Notes: generated by a model from the sequence alone, not told the origin. Shown: positions 2,817-16,654, counted from the stretch's first letter. The stretch is 64,000 nt of DNA from Geitlerinema sp. PCC 7407 (GCF_000317045.1 NC_019703.1:2654501-2718500); one strand, 5' to 3'. A program made the numbers and translations.

Positions 2817-4217
2817 CTAGGCCGCCGCAGAAACCTGGGCTGGGTGGGTTTGGAGATCGATCCAGAACTCCGTTCCCTGATTGGGCTCCGACCAGATCTG
2901 GATTTGTCCTTGGTGCTTCTCGATGATCTGCTGGCTGATTGCTAGACCCAGACCCGTTCCTTGGTTAATCGGCTTCGTTGTGAAGAAAGGCGCAAAGACT
3001 TTAGCGCGGATCTCTTCTGGAATGCCAGGACCATTGTCCTTGATCGAGATCCGAACGCGATCGCCCTCCAGCACCATCGTGCGGATCAAGATAGTCTTCG
3101 ATCGCTCCGCATCTTCCTGCTCCAGCAGCGCATCCATCGCGTTGTTCAGGATATTCATAAAGACCTGATTGAGCTGCGACGGGAAGCACTCCACCAGCGG
3201 CAGATCGCCATACTCCTTCGTGATGGAGATACCCGCCTTGGTCCGATGATTGAGAATCAGCAGCGTGCTGTCGAGTCCCTCGTGGATATTCACCGCCTTG
3301 CACTCCGACCCGTCCAGTCGCGAGAAATTTCGCAAAGAGAGCACAATCTCGCGAATGCGATCGGTCCCAATCTTCATTGACGCCACCGTCTTGGGCAAAT
3401 CCGACGCCACAAACTCCAGATCAATCGCATCCATTTTCTGCTGCACCAACTCAGGCGGCTCCGGGAAGGCAGCCTGGTAAGCACCCAGCATATCCAGCAG
3501 ATCGTGGACATATTCGTCCACGTGCTTGAGATTGCCGTGCAAAAAGTTCACGGGATTGTTGATCTCGTGGGCGATGCCCGCCAGCATCTGTCCCAGACTC
3601 GAGAGCTTTTCTGTCTGGATCAGCTGAGCCTGGGTCTGCTGCAGATCCTGAAGCGCCTTCTCCAGCTTCTGGGTTTGGACCTGAGCCGCCGTCGTCGCCT
3701 CTACCAGCGCCCGCAAGTTGCTGTAGGCCCGCGAATGGTAGCGAATCCGCGCAATCAGCTCAATGGGATCCGGCAACTTGATGAGGTAGTCATTCGCGCC
3801 CTGGGCAAACGCCTCTGCCTTGAACTCCGGCTCCTCTTTGGCCGACAGCACCACCACCGGCACGTCGCGCGTTTCCGGGTGGGACCGAAACCACCGCAGC
3901 AGCATCAGGCCGTCAATGTCAGGCATGACCAGATCTTGCAAGATGACGGTTGGCTTCACCTCTAGGGCAATTTGGATTGCCTGGGTTGGATCGCTACAGA
4001 AGTGGAAGGAGATATCTGATTCTTCTTCAATCAGTCGACGAACCGCCTCTCCAATAATTGGCTGATCATCAATCAATAGAACAGAGGTTTTGCAAGTACT
4101 AAAGACTTCATTTTTTGACCCGCTATTCGCATCTGAAAAGCTTCCTCGCATGGCCTTCACGGGAGCTTCAGATCTGAGGTCTTCCGCTGCGGTATAAATC
4201 TGCATTCCAGGAGTCAT
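2817..4217 (-). CDS. Response-regulator/histidine-kinase hybrid
   Basis: 466 residues. A receiver domain comes first (about 43-165) with phospho-acceptor Asp95 in ILQDLVMPD. A coiled-coil linker (about 175-205) follows, then a HisKA dimerisation domain with His217 in AHEINNP, and an HATPase_c domain with NGPGIP, FFTTKP and GTGLGLAIS. There is no membrane segment, so it is a soluble kinase taking input through its own receiver. This REC-HK order is common in cyanobacteria. The gene stands alone: no cognate regulator is adjacent. It may act with the chemosensory genes to its right, but nothing in the sequence shows this. Met5 is an alternative start. Confidence 0.9.
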   Translation of the reverse strand: MTPGMQIYTAAEDLRSEAPVKAMRGSFSDANSGSKNEVFSTCKTSVLLIDDQPIIGEAVRRLIEEESDISFHFCSDPTQAIQIALEVKPTVILQDLVMPDIDGLMLLRWFRSHPETRDVPVVVLSAKEEPEFKAEAFAQGANDYLIKLPDPIELIARIRYHSRAYSNLRALVEATTAAQVQTQKLEKALQDLQQTQAQLIQTEKLSSLGQMLAGIAHEINNPVNFLHGNLKHVDEYVHDLLDMLGAYQAAFPEPPELVQQKMDAIDLEFVASDLPKTVASMKIGTDRIREIVLSLRNFSRLDGSECKAVNIHEGLDSTLLILNHRTKAGISITKEYGDLPLVECFPSQLNQVFMNILNNAMDALLEQEDAERSKTILIRTMVLEGDRVRISIKDNGPGIPEEIRAKVFAPFFTTKPINQGTGLGLAISQQIIEKHQGQIQIWSEPNQGTEFWIDLQTHPAQVSAAA

Positions 4218-4996: not shown

Positions 4997-6025
4997 TTAG
5001 TAAGGGATTTTACTGAGGTGGTCTAGACAGGCAGGGGCGATCGCCTCTAGGGGCAAGACGGACTCTACGGCCCCCAGCTCGAAGGCAGCCCGAGGCATTC
5101 CGTAGACTACCGAGGTTTTGCGGTCCTGAGCGATCGTGCGCCAGCCAGCGTCCCGCAGGAGCTTGAGGCCCTGGGCGCCGTCTTGGCCCATGCCGGTGAG
5201 GATGACGGCGATGTCAGGCTGGGGCCAGTGCTGGGCAAGGCTGGCAAACAGAGCGTCCACGGATGGCCGGTAGGTGGTCTGGGGCTCAGCGCAGTAGGTG
5301 AACTTACCGCTGGGAGAGAGACAGAGGTGGTCGTTGGTGCCAGCGATCGATACATGGCCGGGAGACGGGGCCTGTCCTTCCTGGGCAATGTCGACGGTTA
5401 GGGGGGTTTGATCGTTGAGCCAGTGGGCTAGCCCCGGGGCAAACTGCTCATCGACGTGCTGAACCACAACGATGCTGGCGTCGAGGGTGGCCGGGAGAGC
5501 GGACAAAATTTTGGCGAGGGCCTGGGGACCGCCGGTGGAGGAGCCGATGGCGATCAGGGGCGATCGCGATCGCCGGGAAACCAGGGCCGGACGCGGCGTA
5601 TCGCGCAGCAGGGAGCGGCGGGGTGCTTTGCCGATCAGCGTGGCGATCGCGCTGATCTTCTTGAGCAGGCCTTTGCCGCCCTCGGAGGCGAACTGGAGAC
5701 CGATGGCTGGCGTATTGATGGCATCCAGCGCGCCGTAGCCCATGGCCGTGAACACCTCGGCGGCGTAGCGATTGACGCTGGCGGTCACCATCAAAATCGC
5801 ACAAGGCGTCGAGGCCATGATGCGGCGGGTTGCCTCCACTCCGTCCATGATGGGCATCACAACATCCATCAAGATCAAGTCGGGCAGGTCGGCGGCGCAG
5901 CGAGCCACGGCTTCGGCACCGTCCTGGGCCGTCCAACTCACTTGGTAGTGAGGCGTTTGCGACACCAAGCGCCGCAAGACTTCTAGAGCCATGGGTGAGT
6001 CATTAACGATCGCAATTTTTAGCAA
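4997..6025 (-). CDS. cheB: CheB-type protein-glutamate methylesterase (WspF-like)
   Basis: 342 residues. The N-terminal receiver (1-120) carries Asp54 in LILMDVVMP; the C-terminal esterase domain (about 155-340) has the triad Ser163 (GSSTGG), His190 (VVQH) and Asp282 (GQDG). It removes methyl groups from receptor glutamates and so resets MCP sensitivity. The start is a TTG directly abutting the TAG of the cheA gene, with GGAGAGG five bases before it, so translation is probably coupled. Being last in the MCP-CheW-CheA-REC-CheB order, it fits WspF in Wsp-type systems. Confidence 0.93.
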   Translation of the reverse strand: MLKIAIVNDSPMALEVLRRLVSQTPHYQVSWTAQDGAEAVARCAADLPDLILMDVVMPIMDGVEATRRIMASTPCAILMVTASVNRYAAEVFTAMGYGALDAINTPAIGLQFASEGGKGLLKKISAIATLIGKAPRRSLLRDTPRPALVSRRSRSPLIAIGSSTGGPQALAKILSALPATLDASIVVVQHVDEQFAPGLAHWLNDQTPLTVDIAQEGQAPSPGHVSIAGTNDHLCLSPSGKFTYCAEPQTTYRPSVDALFASLAQHWPQPDIAVILTGMGQDGAQGLKLLRDAGWRTIAQDRKTSVVYGMPRAAFELGAVESVLPLEAIAPACLDHLSKIPY

Positions 6026-8464
6026 CTACGCCTCTCCAATCAAATCAATCACAGCGCGCAGCAGCGTATCGTCGTGGAAGCTGCTTTTGGTGAGGTAGTA
6101 GTCAGCGCCCGCGTCGAGGCCCAGGACTTTGTCTTCGTCGCGGTCTTTGTAGGAAACGATGATCACAGGCGTTTGCTTCAAGTTGGCGTGGGATTTGATT
6201 TGGTTAACCAGCTCGATGCCGTTCATGCGCGGCATGTCGATGTCGGTCACCACTAAATCATAATGGCCACTCCGGACGGCGTTCCAGCCATCCATGCCGT
6301 TGACGGCCACTTCGACCTGGTAGCCTTTGTTCTCGAGCAGCTTGCGCTCCATTTCTCGCACCGTGATCGAGTCATCCACCACCAGGACGCGCTTGTGGGT
6401 TTTGGCGATCGCCGGGTGGGTCATGGGGTTGATCTGGCCCAGCTTACCGCTGACCAGCAGATTGTCGATGGAGCGCACCAGGTCCTCGACATCGACGATC
6501 AGGACCGGCGACCCGTCTTCTAGGAGGGCGGCGGCGCTGATGTTGGCGACCTTGCCGAGGCGGGGGTCGATGGGCCGCACCACCAGGCTGTGCTCGCCCA
6601 GCAGGCGATCGACGATTAGGCCGCAGCGGCTGAGGCGATCGCTGATCACCACCGTCGTCAGCACCTCGGTCTCTGCGCTGGGCGGCGGCAGCTGGAGCAC
6701 CTGGTAGGCTGGCACCAGGCCCACGGACTGGCGATTGAGCACAAAAAACGGGTGATTTTCTGAGAGGGAAATCTCCGATCGCGACAGCATCAGCACGCGA
6801 TCGATCCGGGTGAGCGGGAAGGCGTAGGGTTCTCCCGAAATTTCGACCAGCAGCGTCCGAATCACCGACAGCGTCAGGGGCAGCTGGAGATGAAAGCTCA
6901 TCCCCTGACCAAACTGGGAGGTGGCCCGCAGAGTTCCGCCCACCTCCTGCACCACGCTCTGCACCACGTCCAGGCCCACGCCCCGCCCCGACACATCGGT
7001 GACCGCCTGCACCGTCGAAAATCCCGGCAAAAAGAGAAACTCCATGAGTTCCGTTTCGCTCAGCCGGTCCGCCATCTCGGGGGCGGTCAGGTTTCGGGCG
7101 ATCACCTGGGCGCGGAGCCGCTCGAGATCGATCCCGCCGCCGTCATCGCTGATGGTGATCGACAGCATTCCCGCCCGGTGGACCGCTTCGATGCGGACGG
7201 TGCCTTCGGCGGGCTTGCCGTGGGCAAGGCGCACCTCGGGGGGCTCGACGCCGTGGTCGATGGCGTTTTGGAGCAGGTGGGTCAGGGGGACTTCGAGTTT
7301 TTCCAGGATGTCGCGATCGACCAGGACCGACTTGCCGATCATCTCCAGGCGCACGCGTTTGCCGAGGCGCTTGGCCAGGTCCCGCACCAGTCGCGGAAAC
7401 CCCTGGCCGCTGTCGCCAAAGGGGCGCATGTGGGTCGAGATCACTTCGCGGTAGAGGCGATCGGCCAGGCTTGAGGAGCGGCGGGCAAAGAGATCCAGCT
7501 CACTCTGGCGATCGCTCAGGAGCTGGCGGCAGTCGTTGGCTTTTTGGAGGGTGAGGCTGCACTGCTCCTCGAGGCGCGGATCGCTCTGGCGCGATCGCAG
7601 CATGTCTTGGAGCTGCTCAAGATGGCTGTAGAGCTCTTGCTGAGAAGCTTTGAGCTTGAGCAGAGAATCGGCGAAGGGCTCCAGCCAGTTGGCCTCGACC
7701 AGGGATTCTCCGGCCAGGCCCATCAGGCGGTTGAGATTTTCGGCGCTGACGCGCACCACGCGATTGGCGATCGCGCCGCTGGCATCGCCGCTGCTGCGCG
7801 AGAGAACCTCAGGCGTCAGGGGCGTCCGCTCAGCCCCCGTCTCCCTCGGCGGCCCCCCAAGCGAGACGGGGGCGGCGGGAGACAGCACTTCTACTGGCAA
7901 GGCCGCCAGGGGCGCCGGAGCCTCGGCCCTCGGCCCCCGTTCGTCGGTCCGAGGCGGCTCTATCCGTCGCTCTGTCGCAGGAAATAAGCCAGAATCCGGC
8001 AGAGCCTCTGGCAAAGCCTCTGGGAGAGGCTCTGCCTCAGAAGATTGGGGCCGATCGGGCTGTATCAAAGCGCTCAGCATCGCCACCACCCCCTGGACCT
8101 CGGGATCTTCAGGAGCAATCCCATAGGTTGGGTCTGCGAGGCTGCGCTCAGCGATCGCCTGGAGCAGATCGGCTCCCTGGAGCAGGCCGTCGATGTGGGC
8201 CGAGGTGAGGGCGATCGCGCCGGAGCGGGCCGCCACCAGGCAGTCCTCCATCCCGTGGGCGATCGCCACCGCCGCCTGGACATGGACCATGCGAGCCGCC
8301 CCCTTGATCGAGTGGGCCGCTCGCATCACCGACGCCAGCACCTCCGGAGCAGCCGGCTGACTCTCCAGGGTGAGCAGCCCCTCATTGAGCATGGCCACTT
8401 GAGCCCGAACCTCCATACAGAAAAGTTCGAGCATTGAAAGACGACTCAGATCGCGATCGCTCAT
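6026..8464 (-). CDS. cheA: Hybrid chemotaxis kinase CheA-REC (WspE-like)
   Basis: 812 residues. Order: Hpt domain with His51 (AAHSIKGAARM), a Pro/Ala-rich linker (about 140-240), a dimerisation region, an HATPase domain with LTHLLQNAIDHGVE and the G boxes DDGGGID and GRGVGLDVV, a CheW-like coupling domain (about 530-665), and a C-terminal receiver (about 690-810) with VVTDIDMP. It autophosphorylates on the Hpt histidine in response to the coupled receptor and can pass phosphate to its own receiver and to CheB. The fused receiver is typical of Wsp and other non-flagellar systems. The gene begins one base after the upstream CheW gene. Confidence 0.95.
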   Translation of the reverse strand: MSDRDLSRLSMLELFCMEVRAQVAMLNEGLLTLESQPAAPEVLASVMRAAHSIKGAARMVHVQAAVAIAHGMEDCLVAARSGAIALTSAHIDGLLQGADLLQAIAERSLADPTYGIAPEDPEVQGVVAMLSALIQPDRPQSSEAEPLPEALPEALPDSGLFPATERRIEPPRTDERGPRAEAPAPLAALPVEVLSPAAPVSLGGPPRETGAERTPLTPEVLSRSSGDASGAIANRVVRVSAENLNRLMGLAGESLVEANWLEPFADSLLKLKASQQELYSHLEQLQDMLRSRQSDPRLEEQCSLTLQKANDCRQLLSDRQSELDLFARRSSSLADRLYREVISTHMRPFGDSGQGFPRLVRDLAKRLGKRVRLEMIGKSVLVDRDILEKLEVPLTHLLQNAIDHGVEPPEVRLAHGKPAEGTVRIEAVHRAGMLSITISDDGGGIDLERLRAQVIARNLTAPEMADRLSETELMEFLFLPGFSTVQAVTDVSGRGVGLDVVQSVVQEVGGTLRATSQFGQGMSFHLQLPLTLSVIRTLLVEISGEPYAFPLTRIDRVLMLSRSEISLSENHPFFVLNRQSVGLVPAYQVLQLPPPSAETEVLTTVVISDRLSRCGLIVDRLLGEHSLVVRPIDPRLGKVANISAAALLEDGSPVLIVDVEDLVRSIDNLLVSGKLGQINPMTHPAIAKTHKRVLVVDDSITVREMERKLLENKGYQVEVAVNGMDGWNAVRSGHYDLVVTDIDMPRMNGIELVNQIKSHANLKQTPVIIVSYKDRDEDKVLGLDAGADYYLTKSSFHDDTLLRAVIDLIGEA

Positions 8465-8465
8465 C

Positions 8466-9194
8466 CTAGAGCACCCTCCGATTTAGGGTGTGAAACAGCA
8501 GCTCCTCGTCTAAATAGCTCACGCTGTGATTTTTCCAGGTAAACAGTCCCCGCGTGAAATTGCTGCGCGCCTGGGTGACGTGGATGGGGGTGTCCTGCAA
8601 CGTGTTCACATCCAGGCGATGGACGCCGTACAGCTCATCCACCGCAAACACCCACGGACTCCCCTCAAACTCCACTACCACAAAGCGGCTATAGACCACC
8701 GGACTAATCGCCCGAGACGGCCCCTCACTGCCTTCGAGCCCCAGCAGATCCGCCAAGGAAACGCAGAGCTGGATTTCGCCGCGAATATTCACTAGGCCCA
8801 GAAGCACCTGATTGCTGCGGTGGGGGAGCGTCCGAATCACGCTCGGGGACGCCACCTCCCGAAACAGCGGCGCTACCAAAGCAAACCACTCTTGGCGCAG
8901 CCGAAAAATCACCACTGACACCAGCGCCTGGGGGCTGAGGGCGTGGGGCTGCTCGCCCGCCTCATCCAAGCGGCGATCGCCCGAGAGCCGCTCAGTCCAC
9001 TCATGGCGGTAGCCCCGGGGCGCTTCGCGATCGAGCAGGTTGCGGCCCGCCAGCCGGTAAACCAGACAGTTGCGGCAGTGGGTCACCTGGATCAGCTCCG
9101 GGCACGTGCGATCGCCCAGCACCCCGATCCGATTCCAGCAGTGATCCTCCAGGGACACCGGCTTATCTTGATCAAAAGCATCCAGAATCGCCAT
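8466..9194 (-). CDS. CheW-like coupling protein with N-terminal four-cysteine motif (WspD-like)
   Basis: 242 residues. The C-terminal two thirds (about 85-240) is a CheW domain (LLGLVNIRGEIQLCVSL, FAVDELYGVHRL). The first 60 residues carry Cys19, Cys31, Cys40 and Cys43 in CWNRIG...CPEL...HCRNC followed by LLDR. As far as I know this cysteine pattern is a signature of the WspD branch of CheW proteins and could bind a metal or act in redox sensing. It would link the MCP to CheA-REC. GGAGA before the ATG gives a good ribosome site. The gene lies between the MCP and cheA in a compact run. Confidence 0.88.
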   Translation of the reverse strand: MAILDAFDQDKPVSLEDHCWNRIGVLGDRTCPELIQVTHCRNCLVYRLAGRNLLDREAPRGYRHEWTERLSGDRRLDEAGEQPHALSPQALVSVVIFRLRQEWFALVAPLFREVASPSVIRTLPHRSNQVLLGLVNIRGEIQLCVSLADLLGLEGSEGPSRAISPVVYSRFVVVEFEGSPWVFAVDELYGVHRLDVNTLQDTPIHVTQARSNFTRGLFTWKNHSVSYLDEELLFHTLNRRVL

Positions 9195-9233
9195 CGCGCT
9201 TCTCCCAACCCAGCAAAATACTCCGTCTGCGAT

Positions 9234-10859
9234 CTACAAGCTCGCCACCTGGAAGCGAGAAATCTCTCGACGCAGATTTTGGGCCACATCATTGAGTTGC
9301 TCGATGGCGCTATTGGTCTCTCGCAGCGACGTCGCCGTCTGCTGAAACGCCTCACTCAGCTGCAGCATCGAATCACTGATCTGCTGCGCCCCCTGAGACT
9401 GAGCGTCCATTCCCTGATTGACCAGGGAGAACTGCGGCACCAGCGCCTGTACCTGCTCGATCACGCGGGCCAGCTGCGAGCTGATGCTGCGCACATCTTC
9501 TACCCCCCGATCGACTTCGCGGGCGAACTTGTCCATTTCCATCACCCCGGTCGAAACCGAAGACTGCATTTCCTTGACCATCTGCTCGATATCCAGGGTC
9601 GCCACCGCGGTCTGATCGGCCAGCCGCCGAATCTCTCGGGCCACCACCGCGAACCCCAGGCCATACTCGCCTGCTTTCTCCGCTTCGATCGCCGCATTGA
9701 GAGACAGCAAGTTGGTTTGGTCAGCCACCTTCGTGATGGTAGTCACCACATTATTAATGTTGTTGGCTTTCTCACTCATGACCCCCAGCTTAGAAGAGAT
9801 CGAATTGGTGGCCTCTGCTAGCTGGCGCATCGTCATTTCCATCCGGCTGAGCCCCTGCTGGCCGTTGTCAGCAGCGCCAGTCGTCGCGTCAGCCATCGCC
9901 GTCACCTCATCCATGGTGCGCAGCAGCTCTGCGGAGGTGGCCGCGATCTCCTTGGCCGTCGCCACCACCTGATTGGTCGAGGCCACCTGCTCCGTCATCG
10001 TCGCCTCAAGCTCTTTGCCAGAGGCGGCGATCTGAGTGGCGGAGGTGGTGACCTGGATCCCCGACTGCTGCACCTGACGCACCAGCGTATTGAGGTTGAG
10101 GGTCATCCCTTCAAAGGCGGTCAGCAATTGTCCTACTTCGTCTTTGCTGCTGGTCTCCCCGGAGGCAGACTGGGTGAGATCGCCTGCGGAGATGCGCTCT
10201 GCCATCTGCACGACGCGGGTGATGCGCGATCCCAAAAACTTGGCGATGAGAAAGGTCGCATAGATGGCGATCGCCAAGGACAAGATCGCAGTCAAAACCG
10301 CTGAGCCACTCAATAGATTCAAGGTCGATCGCGTCGCCTGGATATTATCAATTAAGATCCGCTGTTCAGTCTCTACAAACTCTTCGTAGAGCGCTTCAAA
10401 GCGATCGTTGAGCTCTCGGCTGCGATCGAGATAGCTCTGGATTAATCGGGGATTGATTCCCCCTCGGCCTGCTGCCAAGATATCTCGGGTAACCGTCTGG
10501 ACCTCTTCGCTCAGGACTAGCATTTCCTGGAGACGAGACTCCTGGCCCGGATCGGTCACGACGGCTCCAATCGACTCGGCTCCGTCATTGATGCGCTCGA
10601 TATCACTGGCTATACGCTGATCCACTTCCGTGCTGTTGTTTGTCAGGAGATAGCGGCGAACCCGACGATCGAGGTTCATCAGGCCCTGAGCCATTTCATT
10701 GGCCCCCAGAATGGCCGTTTCGGATGAATCTACCTGATTAAACGTGTGGATCGTTTTACTAGCCGTTAAATAAACCAGTCCACAAAAGATAAAGATGAGA
10801 CCAGTAGGCACTGCATAACCGAGCAGCGTGCGGTCTCGCAATTTGAGATTGGCGAACAT
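9234..10859 (-). CDS. Methyl-accepting chemotaxis protein (WspA-like)
   Basis: 541 residues. Membrane segment 1 is at about 13-32 and segment 2 at about 182-207; between them is a helical ligand-binding region of the four-helix-bundle type. A HAMP domain follows (about 208-262), then a cytoplasmic signalling hairpin (about 270-520) whose tip region contains NLLSLNAAIEAEKAGEYG and EIRRLADQT. There is no C-terminal pentapeptide for docking CheR, consistent with a stand-alone CheR-TPR in this set. The gene is first in the run MCP-CheW-CheA-CheB. The signal sensed is unknown. Confidence 0.94.
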   Translation of the reverse strand: MFANLKLRDRTLLGYAVPTGLIFIFCGLVYLTASKTIHTFNQVDSSETAILGANEMAQGLMNLDRRVRRYLLTNNSTEVDQRIASDIERINDGAESIGAVVTDPGQESRLQEMLVLSEEVQTVTRDILAAGRGGINPRLIQSYLDRSRELNDRFEALYEEFVETEQRILIDNIQATRSTLNLLSGSAVLTAILSLAIAIYATFLIAKFLGSRITRVVQMAERISAGDLTQSASGETSSKDEVGQLLTAFEGMTLNLNTLVRQVQQSGIQVTTSATQIAASGKELEATMTEQVASTNQVVATAKEIAATSAELLRTMDEVTAMADATTGAADNGQQGLSRMEMTMRQLAEATNSISSKLGVMSEKANNINNVVTTITKVADQTNLLSLNAAIEAEKAGEYGLGFAVVAREIRRLADQTAVATLDIEQMVKEMQSSVSTGVMEMDKFAREVDRGVEDVRSISSQLARVIEQVQALVPQFSLVNQGMDAQSQGAQQISDSMLQLSEAFQQTATSLRETNSAIEQLNDVAQNLRREISRFQVASL

Positions 10860-11625
10860 TCAATAAAAATTCCTACCGAGTAGATAAAACGCGATCGCCC
10901 CCAAAGATAGGCTGCGACCTAGATCTTGACTCGCCGAGGAGAAAGCAAACGGAAGGCATATCGCAAGCGCTGGCTCAAGCACCCATGCGGCTCCCTTTCT
11001 CCCACAAAAACACGATGATTGAGGTCTATATCTCCTTGGGCAAGACATCTAGACCCAATATGCCCAAAATCAGCAGCCCTTAACAGACCTCTCCACATCT
11101 CTCTAAAGTTACATTTGTACCGTAACGGTCTCAGTCTAGAGTAGAGAGAATCTTAAGTATTTCTTATCCTAGAGCCAGCGATAGACAGCGGTGCTTTTTG
11201 AGGACGGTCATAGAAAAAAATGAAGATCAGCGATCGCCCTAGATTTTTGCTGCTTAGTTTTTAATTTTGCCTTTAGGGCCAGCACAATCTAAATCAATAT
11301 CGAAAATTAATTTTCAAATCAACCGAATTAGATATTTAAGATAAATTACTATTTTTGATAATTTTATTAATATCTTTACCAAGAATCATAGAGCAGAATT
11401 AATCAAAAACTCGACAATTTAACCTGAATAAATACAGATAATAAAATTCAGTTGAATCATTCAAAAAAATTAAATACTTACTGAGAAAACAAAGTTTTCG
11501 CAATATTTGGTTTATCATACCCTATGCAGTATCTTTACTTCGAGCCGGATTAAATTCCCTAACAGAAACTCAGCGATCGCTAATCTCACGACTCTTGAAA
11601 AAAGAAATCTATGGGAGGATCAGCA
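10860..11625. other. Divergent intergenic region between MCP and antiporter genes
   Basis: About 765 bases separate two divergent genes; 11200-11560 is markedly AT-rich. It must carry both promoters. A frame of 62 codons at 10860-11048 on the minus strand has no family features or ribosome site and is not called. I see no convincing operator. Confidence 0.45.
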
Positions 11626-13239
11626 ATGGGATGGATTGTCGCACAGCAAAATCCACTAGACAGCAACTCTATTGAAAGTAGTCAAGCGGCAGGTAGCATT
11701 CCTGAACTGGTCATTGTTCTGATTATTTTGCTCCTGATCGCAACTGTCGTTGCTCTGGTGACCCAGCGGTTGCGCATTCCCTACGTCACAGGGTTGGTGC
11801 TAGCAGGATTGCCCATTACAGAGGTTTTTTCGCAGCAGGTTGGGCTAGATCCTTCTCTCGTTCTCAATCTTTTTCTGCCAATTCTAATTTTTGAAGCGGC
11901 CATTAATACCGATATCAGCCGTCTTCGCAGTACTTTTAAACCCATTACCCTTTTAGCCGGTCCCGGGTCGATTTTCTCATCCGCAATCATCGCGACTATT
12001 GTGAAATACAGTCTGGGTCTAGACTGGATTCCTGCGTTGCTGGTCGGAGTCATTCTGGCCAACACCGATACCGTTTCAATGATTGCCGTTTTCAAAGAAA
12101 TTCGCGTCCCTTCTCGGCTCTCGACCATTGTTGAAGGAGAGACTTTATTCAACGACGCGGCGGCTCTAGTTTCTTTTAACTTAATTCTCATTGTTTACAC
12201 AACCGGCTCTTTAACCGCCGCAGAAGGAATCAAAGAGCTGCTAATTGTTGCAGTAGGCGGAGCACTTTTAGGAGCGATACTTGGCTATTTAAGCCTGCCT
12301 ATTTTTGCTCGCTTGAATGATCCTTTGAGCAGCCTGTTGTTGACCGGTGCTTTAGCATTAGGAACCTTTCAGATCGGCCAATTTTTAGGAGTATCCGGGG
12401 CTGTTTCAGTCGTGATTGCCGGACTGATTTTTGGCAATCTCGGCTTGCCTCAGAGCACATCTGCCTCCGATCGCATGTCTTTGCTGAGCTTCTGGGAATA
12501 TGCCGGATTTGGCGTCAATACGTTTATTTTTCTGCTGATTGGGATTGAGATCAATCCCGGCACCCTGTGGAGGATTTTGCCTTCTATTTTGCTGGTGATT
12601 CTGGCGTACCAGCTGGGGCGGATTCTCTCTGTCTACCTATTGCTGGCGGGGCTGCGCTGGTTCGATCGCCCCATTCCTCTGCGCTGGCAACACGTTCTAT
12701 TTTTGGGCAACATCAAGGGTTCTCTCTCCATGGCCCTAGCGCTGAGCATTCCCCTCACCTTGGCCGGACGGGAAAGCATTATTGCGCTGGTGTTCGGTGC
12801 AGTTTTGTTCTCCCTAGTGGGGCAGGGGCTCAGCTTACCTTGGCTGGTCAAGCGACTCCAGATCGGCAAATCCTCGGACGCGATGGAGCAAGTTGGAGAG
12901 CTCCAGATTCAACTCATTGCTGCGAAAGCAGCCCAAGATGAGCTGGATAGTTTGCTGAAGTCAGGGGTATTGCCCAAGGCTGTATACGAAGAACTCTGGG
13001 CGTCCTATCAAGCGCGGGTTGCCCAATCAGAGCGGGTCTTGCGGGATCTGCACAACCAATATCGAGCAGGTCAGCTCAAGAGCGATCGCAGCGGACTCGA
13101 CACTATTCGACGACAGCTGCTGCTGGCCGAAAAAGGAGCCGTTCGCGATGCCCTCCGCAAACGAATCGTTCCTGAGGATCTAGTGCAGCCTTACATCAAA
13201 AATTTGGATGAGAAACTTCTTTCATTGGAAGATGACTAG
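11626..13239 (+). CDS. Cation/proton antiporter, CPA1 (NhaP-like) family
   Basis: 537 residues. About twelve membrane helices fill residues 20-405; the family core is visible in LLVGVILANTDTVSMIAVFKE and ETLFNDAAALVSF, which carry the acidic residues (Asn-Asp) expected to bind and exchange Na+ or K+ for H+. The last 130 residues are a soluble, charged helical tail of possible regulatory role. The start at 11626 is chosen over an in-frame ATG at 11611 because GGGAGG (11614-11619) sits seven bases before it. The 3' end overlaps the convergent TrkA-like gene by 44 bases, hinting at a functional pair in ion homeostasis. Confidence 0.92.
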   Translation: MGWIVAQQNPLDSNSIESSQAAGSIPELVIVLIILLLIATVVALVTQRLRIPYVTGLVLAGLPITEVFSQQVGLDPSLVLNLFLPILIFEAAINTDISRLRSTFKPITLLAGPGSIFSSAIIATIVKYSLGLDWIPALLVGVILANTDTVSMIAVFKEIRVPSRLSTIVEGETLFNDAAALVSFNLILIVYTTGSLTAAEGIKELLIVAVGGALLGAILGYLSLPIFARLNDPLSSLLLTGALALGTFQIGQFLGVSGAVSVVIAGLIFGNLGLPQSTSASDRMSLLSFWEYAGFGVNTFIFLLIGIEINPGTLWRILPSILLVILAYQLGRILSVYLLLAGLRWFDRPIPLRWQHVLFLGNIKGSLSMALALSIPLTLAGRESIIALVFGAVLFSLVGQGLSLPWLVKRLQIGKSSDAMEQVGELQIQLIAAKAAQDELDSLLKSGVLPKAVYEELWASYQARVAQSERVLRDLHNQYRAGQLKSDRSGLDTIRRQLLLAEKGAVRDALRKRIVPEDLVQPYIKNLDEKLLSLEDD

Positions 13240-13912
13240 GGTGAATTCCCAGAAAGTCGATCATGGGGTGGACTGATTCGGAGCGGGTCACAACCAGGAT
13301 GGTTGAGCCCGCTTCTAGGACCGTGTTGCCGTTGGGAATTTCCAGATTTGCGCAGGAGTGGTGCTGATAGCCAATGATCAGGGAACCGGTCGGGAAACGA
13401 GGATCCTGGGCGATCTGAGCAAGACTACGCCCTGCTGCATAGCAGCCGCTGGGCACCGGAAGCTTTAAAACCTCTACCTGCCCCTGCTCAAAGTGCATCA
13501 TCGACTCTACTTCGGGGTATTCGATTGCGTTTGCCATCGTTGCGACGGCCAAATCCACTGTGCTGATCACGTGGCTGGCTTGGGCAAGACGATAGGCTTC
13601 CAAAAACTCGCGATCGCGCATCCGCACCACGATATGAGAGATCCCGTAGCTTCTTGAGAGCGTGATCAACGCTAAATTGAGGGCGTCACTTCTCAGAGCT
13701 GCGACCACTGCATTGGCCTGACGAATGCCTGCTTCGAGGAGAACGGTCGTGCTGACAGCACTGCCTTCAAAGGCCATCACGCCAATTTTCTCCCGCGCAA
13801 AGCGGCAGGCCAGGGGATCAATATCGATGATGGCCACTGTATGACCCTGGTTTAATAATTGTTGGGCTAGGCCCAAGCCCATCATTCCTGCACCGCCAAT
13901 TACTACATACAT
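13196..13912 (-). CDS. TrkA-like potassium channel/transport regulatory subunit (RCK)
   Basis: 238 residues. An N-terminal Rossmann fold (GGAGMMGLGLA, then acidic IIDID ending strand 2) is the NAD(H)/nucleotide-binding RCK_N domain; residues about 145-220 resemble the RCK_C (TrkA_C) domain. Such proteins gate K+ channels or transporters, and fused or separate RCK domains also regulate CPA-type antiporters. The convergent antiporter gene overlaps it by 44 bases. No Trk/Ktr membrane subunit is nearby, so regulation of the antiporter or of a distant channel is inferred. Confidence 0.85.
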   Translation of the reverse strand: MYVVIGGAGMMGLGLAQQLLNQGHTVAIIDIDPLACRFAREKIGVMAFEGSAVSTTVLLEAGIRQANAVVAALRSDALNLALITLSRSYGISHIVVRMRDREFLEAYRLAQASHVISTVDLAVATMANAIEYPEVESMMHFEQGQVEVLKLPVPSGCYAAGRSLAQIAQDPRFPTGSLIIGYQHHSCANLEIPNGNTVLEAGSTILVVTRSESVHPMIDFLGIHPSHLPMKEVSHPNF

Positions 13913-14238
13913 CGCGAATGAATATCCTCAAAAATGAACCTATGCATGTTTAGATTTAACATGATTAGTCTACTCAAAATAGATTGTTGAGTTGGTTTTA
14001 GCCTTGGCAATCTAAGGGCTAATATCTATGTTCTTTGAGCTGCACACAGTGAGAACGAGTCTGGGGCAGAAAGCTGGACGCGTCTCTTACCCAGATCTCT
14101 AATAGCGCCGCAAGGGTTTTTATTTAGATCTCTCTTTGCGGTGCAAAACGCTGCAAAAAGTCTTCTAGGTGAGTGCCTGCCCACTCGATCGCTTCGCGAT
14201 CGCCAGAAGATAGCCATCAAATCTAATTAGGTCTAGTT
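13913..14238. other. Intergenic region with hairpins
   Basis: It holds the promoter side of the TrkA-like gene and the 3' side of cheR. CCGCAAGG and CTTTGCGG (about 14107-14140) and GATCGC/GCGATC (about 14187-14202) can form hairpins that may end cheR transcription. No gene is supported here. Confidence 0.4.
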
Positions 14239-15531
14239 TCAAGGCAGGTCGGCCTGGGGCGATCGCAGTCGATGCACTCGCTGCCACAGCAGGGTCGCGC
14301 TGCTCGTATCTCCCTGCTGCTCCCGCAACAGCGCCAGATGCACTAATGCCTCTTCGGCCCGTGGCTGAAGATAAATCGCCTTTTGGAAAGACTGTTCTGC
14401 TTCTACTTCTTGGCCGCTGGCCTGCTGAAGCTGTCCTAGCAAAGTATAGACGTCTGCGTTGGTGCGATCGCTTCGCAAAAATATCTCGCAGAGATAGATT
14501 GCCTGGGAGAGATTTCCCTGATCGGCTAGCGTGCGGGCTTGGGCCAAGAGATTGTCTGGCTCTGGGGTCGCAGGCTGCGGCGTCGGCTGGGGCTTGCTCG
14601 GGAGCGATCGCCCACTGGAGACCAGAGACAGTCCTGGGAGAGACAGACCGGGAGCAGAAGGCTGCGGTGCCACGGTTCCCAGCGTCGGCAGCGATCGCTC
14701 AGCGGGCTTTGGCTTCGGGCGATCGCCCACCTTGGGAGGGAGAGACTTGCGATAGGCAAAGGCAAAGGGATACTGCACGGGTGTAAAGCGCTGGCCAAAG
14801 ATCTGGCTCATCTCTGCGTGGCCCACAAACAGCACGCCCTGATCTTTGAGAGCGCGATAGAGCATCTGGCTCGCTTTTTGTCGCGTCTCACCGTCGAAAT
14901 AGATCAGCAGGTTGCGGCAAAAGATAATGTCATAGAGAGGCTTATCAACCCAAAAAGCAGGCTGAAGAAGATTACCCACCGAGAAATGGATCGAGTCTCG
15001 AAAAAGGGGCTGAATTTGTAAACCCTCTGGCGTCGGTTCAAAGTAGCGCGCTCCAAAAGAGGGGCTATTTCCTCGAAATGAGTGGGGACTATAAATTCCT
15101 CGCAACGCATGGGCGATCGCCTGTCGGCTGATATCGATCGCGTCGATCTGAAATTGGGCACTGGTCAGCCCGATTTCCCGCAGGGCGATCGCGATGGAAT
15201 AGGGCTCCTCACCCGTCGAGCAAGGCACACTCAGCACCCGCAGCCTAGAAGCAGAATGCTGGGGTAGCCAGTCCTTGAGCACAGACTCTTTGAGGTAGTG
15301 GAAAGACTCGCGGCTGCGGAAAAACCAAGTTTCAGGAATCACGATCTGCTCGAGCAGAATATCTAACTCCTGCGCAGAGACCTTGAGCCGATTCAAATAG
15401 AGATCAACAGAGTCTAGCTGGTAAAAATCCATACGCTGCCTGACGGCGCGCACCAAGCGGTTGACGCCGATTAGGTTCGCTTCTAGGCCTGTCTGCTGTC
15501 GAATCCAGGACTCAATCGAGGGATAGGCCAT
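14239..15531 (-). CDS. cheR: CheR methyltransferase with C-terminal TPR (WspC-like)
   Basis: 430 residues from the ATG at 15531. The CheR N-terminal all-alpha domain (about 5-70) is followed by the SAM-dependent methyltransferase domain (PCSTGEEPYSIAIAL, FCRNLLIYF), a Pro/Ser-rich linker (about 265-325), and TPR repeats (about 330-420). It methylates MCP glutamates, opposing CheB. A TPR tail is the hallmark of WspC. An in-frame GTG at 15564 would add eleven residues; neither start has a good ribosome site, and ATG gives the usual family N-terminus. It is separated from the MCP operon by two ion-transport genes. Confidence 0.92.
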   Translation of the reverse strand: MAYPSIESWIRQQTGLEANLIGVNRLVRAVRQRMDFYQLDSVDLYLNRLKVSAQELDILLEQIVIPETWFFRSRESFHYLKESVLKDWLPQHSASRLRVLSVPCSTGEEPYSIAIALREIGLTSAQFQIDAIDISRQAIAHALRGIYSPHSFRGNSPSFGARYFEPTPEGLQIQPLFRDSIHFSVGNLLQPAFWVDKPLYDIIFCRNLLIYFDGETRQKASQMLYRALKDQGVLFVGHAEMSQIFGQRFTPVQYPFAFAYRKSLPPKVGDRPKPKPAERSLPTLGTVAPQPSAPGLSLPGLSLVSSGRSLPSKPQPTPQPATPEPDNLLAQARTLADQGNLSQAIYLCEIFLRSDRTNADVYTLLGQLQQASGQEVEAEQSFQKAIYLQPRAEEALVHLALLREQQGDTSSATLLWQRVHRLRSPQADLP

Positions 15532-15640
15532 AGGTGGGGGAGGGCAATCAGTGGATCCAAGCACTTTCTGTCAACCTATCAAACCAACATTTCAAACCGG
15601 GAGTCCCTTGATTTAAGTTTGTGCAGCAAGCTCTAGCCCC

Positions 15641-16114
15641 TCAGCGGAGAACCCCACTCGTTTGCTGCAAGAGCGGCAGCAGCAGCCCGGACCAGTCGGC
15701 CAACAAAGCCTCAGGATCAAGGCACTGGATCAGGCTTTGATCCTCTACGAGGATATGTCCGAGGTAAGAAACCTGAGCCCCTCCCACTTGGGCACCCGGG
15801 TCGACCGCATAATTTGCCGTTTCGACCACTCGCTCAGCCATCAACCCCACCACGGCCGGTTCGGGCAGCGCATCACCCAGGGTTGAGTTCACCAGCACGA
15901 TCCGAGTGCTGAGGTGATTTTGGGATGGCTGATGGCGCAGGACTTGGCTCAGGTCGATGACGGGCACCAGGCGATCGCGGTAGCGCAGCACCCCCGCGAT
16001 CGCCCCCGAAGCGTGGGCGAGTTTTCGCAGCTTCACCAGGGGCACCACTTCCACAATTTGGTGAACGGGCACCGCATAGCGGTCGTCTTCTACCCAGAAG
16101 ATCAGCATCAGCAT
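15641..16114 (-). CDS. cheW: CheW coupling protein (WspB-like)
   Basis: 157 residues from the ATG at 16114, which has GGAGG ten bases upstream; longer upstream starts would add a non-CheW leader. The protein is essentially one CheW domain (YAVPVHQIVEVVPLV, GVLRYRDRLVPVIDLS). It would scaffold the MCP and CheA-REC. It is transcribed towards cheR, 109 bases away. Together with the WspD-like protein this gives two CheW proteins, as in Wsp sets. Confidence 0.9.
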   Translation of the reverse strand: MLMLIFWVEDDRYAVPVHQIVEVVPLVKLRKLAHASGAIAGVLRYRDRLVPVIDLSQVLRHQPSQNHLSTRIVLVNSTLGDALPEPAVVGLMAERVVETANYAVDPGAQVGGAQVSYLGHILVEDQSLIQCLDPEALLADWSGLLLPLLQQTSGVLR

Positions 16115-16654
16115 CCCCCAGCACCTCCAGACATGATCATTTGCCGCTCCCGAGTGAGGGCTCCAAAAACTAACGCTGCCCAAAAATGGCCGCAATGGGA
16201 TTCGTTTCTGTTCCTAGCTTGCCCCGGCTCGATCGGCTTTGGCTTCAGTGTGCCACTCACTCTTTCGCCGATCTGAACCAGGACAACGCAGTTCACAAAG
16301 CTTAATGGGGGACTGCCGCACGGATGCTTGGCCCCAATCTGTTCTCTCTGGGTTGCCTGCGATCGCCCTTTGGCTCGATCGATCGCTGGAGGCTCCCTCC
16401 GAAAATCCCGAAAATTCTGAAAATCTGCCTAGAAAGAAAGCCCCTGGCCGGTAAGGTCAGAGGCTCATCAAGACTCCTGATGTTCTTCTATCAAGATATC
16501 GGTAAGGGTGATGTTCAGGCTTCCGCTATGAGGCGGATTCTGTGAAGCTGGATGCAGTTCCTGCAAGCGCTCTCTAGGAGAGCTTTTGAGCGATCGCGCT
16601 TAGCTTTGTCTTACGACTATTAGCGGATATGGGTGCGCTCCTAGAGCGCGCGAC
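16115..16654. other. Intergenic region with two hairpins
   Basis: About 540 bases. GCTCTC-TAG-GAGAGC followed by TTTT (about 16569-16587) is terminator-like in the plus direction. GCGCTC-CTA-GAGCGC (about 16632-16646) lies just past the stop of the next minus-strand gene and may end its transcript. Short open frames here have no support. Confidence 0.4.

Follow-up and report, generated by a model that had tools for sequence, protein, structure and literature searches.

The window analysed here is a stretch of 64,000 nucleotides from the genome of Geitlerinema sp. PCC 7407 (GCF_000317045.1, NC_019703.1:2654501-2718500). On its minus strand it carries a chemosensory gene cluster (4997-16195) and, after cheB, a gene for a histidine kinase with an N-terminal receiver (2817-4217). 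The system is probably of Wsp type, with a response regulator that kept the WspR receiver and had its diguanylate cyclase swapped for a histidine kinase. Soil bacteria sense surfaces with such a protein set, and the Wsp pathway serves as a model of how surface contact is converted into cyclic di-GMP (c-di-GMP). The original prediction, made from the window sequence, described a Wsp-like set at 4997-16114 without WspR. This holds for the GGDEF domain, as Pfam found no GGDEF gene inside or beside the cluster, but not for the receiver, which is present at 2817-4217. The genes do lie in the range given, but it ends one gene short of 2817-4217, the longest start of the first CheW gene is at 16195, and a pair of unrelated genes interrupts the set.

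The proposed output gene and its receiver

Gene 2817-4217 adjoins cheB, just outside the range given originally, and encodes a protein of REC-HisKA-HATPase architecture, the kinase domains being recognised by Pfam. Its receiver (residues 45-187) matched the WspR structures 3BRE and 3I5A at 181 and 177 bits. With the receiver alone as query, the scores were 184 and 179 bits for these structures, against 67 bits for PleD, which came next among solved proteins. It shares 66% identity with Pseudomonas aeruginosa WspR and 24-34% with 22 other receivers, which include those of the two REC-GGDEF proteins of the genome, of its own CheA and CheB and of its two other chemosensory sets. In annotated proteobacterial Wsp operons a REC-GGDEF gene occupies the same place after cheB. 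In the receiver tree, all receivers from this slot formed one clade with 100% support and the comparison receivers fell outside it. In an alignment of nine slot proteins the invariant columns end with the last receiver helix (RIRYHS..Y), which places the domain joint directly after the receiver. Beyond this helix each class of slot protein carries a different output domain. As judged by sequence, the proposed output protein of the system has a WspR receiver, with a histidine kinase in place of the GGDEF domain.

Kinship of the chemosensory core to Wsp

Reference Wsp operons of Proteobacteria were taken from plasmid records. The annotated operons of Mesorhizobium and Azoarcus encode a chemoreceptor (MCP), CheW, CheR, CheW, CheA-REC, CheB and REC-GGDEF, and the Azoarcus REC-GGDEF protein matched P. 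aeruginosa WspR (3BRE) at 426 bits. A tree was built from 39 CheA sequences, 21 of Wsp type (7 proteobacterial and 14 cyanobacterial) and 18 others; P. aeruginosa WspE was not among them. The Wsp-type rows were split with 100/100 support from the 18 others, including both other CheAs of PCC 7407. Within the Wsp part, the proteobacterial rows formed one group (98/92) and the cyanobacterial rows another (99/97). The original prediction would have been refuted, by its own terms, if CheA had grouped firmly with phototaxis (Pix/Tax) systems; in the 39-CheA tree the window CheA stood apart from the Pix/Tax/Hmp-type (type IV pilus) CheAs of PCC 7407 and of other cyanobacteria. In tblastn comparison the window CheA (6026-8464, minus strand; Pfam Hpt, HATPase, CheW and C-terminal REC; WspE counterpart) showed mostly 47-56% identity to the proteobacterial Wsp CheAs, against 33-34% to the other CheAs of its own genome.

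The CheW encoded at 8466-9194 on the minus strand (CheW-D, WspD counterpart; Pfam CheW 2.3e-18) possesses a four-cysteine N-terminus. In its translation the cysteines stand at positions 19, 31, 40 and 43, exactly as predicted, and their interpretation as a sign of WspD proved right. All four are kept in 111 of 111 relatives from both phyla, seven of them Proteobacteria, and in a comparison of cyanobacterial relatives in 24 of 24. The spacing C-x11-C-x8-C-x2-C occurs in nearly all sequences, a few rows having a short insertion. The motif (residues 19-43) has no Pfam or NCBIfam model and is possibly a metal or Fe-S site. A survey of 794 proteobacterial Wsp systems described conserved WspD motifs and left the cysteines unmentioned (PMC8552884).

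The other members, all on the minus strand, agree with this picture. CheR-TPR (14239-15564, WspC counterpart; Pfam CheR 8e-43 and TPR matches) scored 166-216 bits against Wsp CheR and 86-97 bits against non-Wsp CheR. Together with the MCP (9234-10859, WspA counterpart; Pfam MCPsignal 1.6e-33 and HAMP) and CheB (4997-6025, WspF counterpart; Pfam CheB_methylest 9e-59 and REC, NCBIfam CheB above cut-off), it scored higher against Wsp than against any other set. The MCP is 37-40% identical to proteobacterial Wsp receptors. Its two predicted transmembrane helices correspond to hydropathy peaks at residues 11-34 and 179-213, which flank about 150 residues, a topology fitting a membrane sensor. CheW-B (15641-16195; Pfam CheW 1.8e-22) stands in the WspB position, as in relatives. 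Its longest start, at 16195, is a TTG, and an in-frame ATG at 16114 is the alternative. Every part listed originally is present with full domains, and the correspondence of the set to WspA-F stands. The core is classed as Wsp-type on its WspE-lineage CheA, its four-cysteine WspD and the clustering of these with CheR-TPR, CheB, CheW-B and a membrane MCP.

The gene order in the window is B-C-A-D-E-F-R', with an insertion between cheR and mcp. It consists of a gene for a Na+/H+ exchanger of antiporter type (11611-13239, plus strand; Pfam 2.5e-69) and one for a TrkA-N/TrkA-C protein (13196-13912, minus strand; Pfam), which overlap tail to tail and lie outside the conserved set. This pair separates cheR from mcp in none of the approximately 110 other loci compared. 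The TrkA-like gene is absent from all of them, and the exchanger has a single distant match, outside the cluster of locus L167. Both genes were rejected as system components, as they occur at the Wsp locus only in Geitlerinema sp. PCC 7407. Beside the cluster lies a region of exopolysaccharide (Wzx/Wzc/WbaP type) and glycosyltransferase genes (18000-43684, strand not assigned), confirmed by Pfam matches to SLBB/Poly_export, Wzz, Bac_transf, Polysacc_synt and pyruvyl transferase. This adjacency had been offered as pointing to a plausible target, a claim that loses its footing on comparison. Among about 110 loci of relatives Wza and WbaP occurred in none and Wzc in one, so the adjacency is not conserved and was dropped as evidence. 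The region itself is a possible but unproven target. Elsewhere, the Pix/Tax/Hmp-type set of the genome (3.26-3.27 Mb) comprises DUF4388-REC, CheY, CheW, MCP and a CheA of 2706 residues. A second non-Wsp set (L032, 4.494-4.502 Mb) comprises CheR-TPR, a double CheW, a CHASE3 receptor, CheA-REC and CheB, and adjoins REC-SpoIIE, a hybrid kinase and a small STAS-like protein.

Different output domains in cyanobacterial Wsp loci

Of 291 cyanobacterial genomes from 115 genera, 22 genomes from 18 genera have CheW-D. A WspR-type receiver lies directly downstream of cheB on the same strand in 60 of the 71 cyanobacterial loci with cheB, which are not independent samples (L143, where the gene overlaps cheB, is counted); in the other 11 there is no such receiver. 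The 60 receivers are joined to a histidine kinase (28), two types of adenylate cyclase (13 and 8), SpoIIE phosphatase (8) and GGDEF (2, in Pseudanabaena), and one is cut by a contig end. The fewest output changes required are five on the receiver tree and eight on the CheA tree, figures that are rough as many deep branches are weak. We lean somewhat towards regarding the cyanobacterial Wsp core as a constant sensory unit whose output can be exchanged. On the receiver tree this would mean at least five fusions of one WspR receiver, its partners being a histidine kinase, adenylate cyclases of two types, a SpoIIE phosphatase whose gene lies next to slr1658/slr1659-family genes, and a diguanylate cyclase. 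A like cue would then lead to phosphorelay, cyclic AMP, partner switching or c-di-GMP according to lineage, and the kinase-type Wsp would be separate from that of Burkholderia (WspH).

In the phosphatase-type locus L067 (3120-5487), the gene for the SpoIIE-type protein with the WspR receiver precedes genes of the slr1658 and slr1659 families, which are SiaB/SiaC-like, the slr1658-type product being distantly SiaB-like. Such loci suggest a partner-switching output for Wsp. In the cyclase-type locus L081 a cyclic-nucleotide-binding gene lies close by. The second kinase type, together with cyclase and phosphatase types on the same receiver, provides a natural domain-swap set, from which one might learn what WspE recognises in WspR and by what means one receiver controls unrelated outputs.

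Several individual loci deserve mention. Pseudanabaena biceps PCC 7429 has a REC-GGDEF protein in the slot (L140, 10288-11319) whose receiver is 78% identical to that of the window, a true cyanobacterial WspR. In a sub-group of the cyanobacterial sets, from Planktothrix, Microcoleus and others (L069, L073, L151-L158 and L163), cheR is flanked by two MCP genes and a WspR-type receiver is absent downstream. A WspD-type CheW without other che genes nearby was found in L072, L075, L154, L159, L160 and L162; in L075 it is situated between epimerase-family and ABC transporter genes. Genome G141 has a solitary WspD-type CheW and a Wsp-type CheA elsewhere.

Proposed working, alternatives and known systems

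In Wsp and Che systems, CheR and CheB set the activity of the receptor, the receptor drives CheA, and CheA phosphorylates CheB and the output receiver. Along these lines, the chemoreceptor of PCC 7407 would respond to a cell-surface or envelope cue, its activity would be set by methyl groups added by CheR-TPR and removed by CheB, and the two CheWs would couple it to CheA. CheA would autophosphorylate and serve as phosphodonor for its own receiver, for CheB and for the receiver of 2817-4217, which on phosphorylation would turn the attached kinase on or off. The kinase would in turn phosphorylate a response regulator, DNA-binding or of another kind, whose gene lies elsewhere, making the output a phosphorelay and not direct c-di-GMP synthesis. 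The parts, their Wsp kinship, the identity of the receiver and its conserved place after cheB can be read directly from the genes; we infer the phosphotransfer from CheA to the receiver and its effect on the kinase, as well as the surface cue and the final target. A phosphorelay is thus proposed for surface-linked behaviour in filamentous cyanobacteria, in which exopolysaccharide regulation is poorly understood.

Some observations weigh against this working. The outer domain of the MCP was not recognisably WspA-like in these searches, its matches being confined to cyanobacterial receptors of the same Wsp set, and the cue may therefore differ from that of WspA. The gap between cheB and 2817-4217 is 779 bp, whereas most relatives have a shorter one (median 297), and the gene may therefore be transcribed from a separate promoter. 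No cognate regulator acting after the kinase was identified. A LuxR-type regulator of 226 amino acids is encoded beside the REC-kinase in seven Nostoc-type loci (e.g. L061, 2116-2796, and L086, 16564-17244), and its counterpart in PCC 7407, with 85% identity, lies unlinked at 4.242 Mb. It was not accepted as the partner of the kinase, as it is near-identical across species and distant in PCC 7407 and so looks like a housekeeping gene.

The long gap, along with the 11 of 71 loci without the receiver, would also suit a bystander or decayed remnant at 2817-4217, CheA-REC and CheB acting on the receptor only and the output arising by cross-talk. This is quite unlikely, since the reading frame is open, the phosphorylation site of the receiver and the H, N, D and G boxes of the kinase are all intact, and the position and kind of the gene are conserved in Nostoc-type relatives. 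It is very unlikely that the system is an independent taxis-like (Pix/Tax/Hmp) or general alternative cellular function (ACF) pathway, Wsp-like by its parts only. Chemosensory systems of cyanobacteria mostly serve type IV pili, and TPR-fused CheR is widespread in ACF pathways (PMC3447774), but the CheA split, the invariant WspD cysteines and the WspR receiver already contradict such an origin, as do the scores of MCP, CheR and CheB.

A standard Wsp output through c-di-GMP, with CheA phosphorylating a REC-GGDEF protein encoded elsewhere, is unlikely. The genome search for such proteins advised originally returned 23 GGDEF matches elsewhere, among them two clean REC-GGDEF proteins of WspR size (350 and 345 amino acids, at 2.169 and 1.960 Mb), and one of these aligns with WspR (3BRE) from end to end, at 212 bits. 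However, PleD is matched equally well (215 bits), mainly through the GGDEF part. The search thus found candidates with ordinary receivers that lie outside the WspR clade (28% and 31% identity to that of the Wsp slot), while the receiver close to WspR sits on the kinase. On receiver identity and the receiver tree, both genes were rejected as a hidden WspR.

A Wsp-type system with a kinase in place of the cyclase resembles the Wsp R-system of Pseudomonas and others in its CheA clade, two CheW types with a four-cysteine WspD, CheR-TPR, CheB and WspR receiver. It differs in the protein driven by the receiver, a GGDEF protein there and a histidine kinase in PCC 7407, in the outer domain of the receptor and in gene order, which is A-B-C-D-E-F-R in the R-system, without the antiporter pair.

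The nearest parallel in output is Burkholderia WspH/WspHRR (Wsp H-system), in which a WspR-like receiver, 62% identical to that of PCC 7407, is likewise joined to a histidine kinase replacing GGDEF. The kinase is of another type, with no HisKA by Pfam and a different H-box; it matches that of PCC 7407 at 35% identity over 78 residues (score 71, shuffled maximum 55), a generic ATPase similarity. Burkholderia wspH lies upstream of wspA, a REC-HATPase gene preceding the MCP gene in the B. cenocepacia locus, whereas the PCC 7407 kinase gene follows cheB; the CheA of the one falls in the proteobacterial clade and that of the other in the cyanobacterial clade. One descent for both kinases is unsupported, given the weak similarity and the different H-box. 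With the separate CheA clades, the generic similarity makes it most likely that the kinase outputs arose separately. Kinase-type Wsp was described as restricted to Burkholderia in a beta- and gammaproteobacterial survey (PMC8552884). Burkholderia wsp mutants form wrinkled colonies with unchanged c-di-GMP, and suppressor mutations fall in polysaccharide genes and in the gene for RowR, a DNA-binding response regulator (PMC8552884, PMC4324302), providing a precedent for a kinase output, although the downstream step is unsolved there.

Among cyanobacteria, the cassette of Phormidesmis priestleyi BC1401 shares the wspB-C-A-D-E-F order but has an adenylate cyclase at the place of WspR (PMC4971617), and a cyclic-nucleotide-binding gene was reported close by, as in L081. 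That paper reported no WspR receiver in the cyclase and sought WspR homologues elsewhere (PMC4971617); the cyclase at this place in the cyanobacterial loci compared here does carry the WspR receiver. The same paper already reported, in 2016, a Wsp system in Geitlerinema sp. PCC 7407, its output not being named. In ACF pathways, too, CheR-TPR is accompanied by response regulators of several domains, and about 40% of these regulators include a kinase module; their survey catalogued architectures and did not show a single receiver lineage with exchanged outputs (PMC3447774). Within the papers searched, neither the output identified here nor the pattern of one receiver with exchanged outputs had been described; it seems that a single sensor has repeatedly been connected to new outputs.

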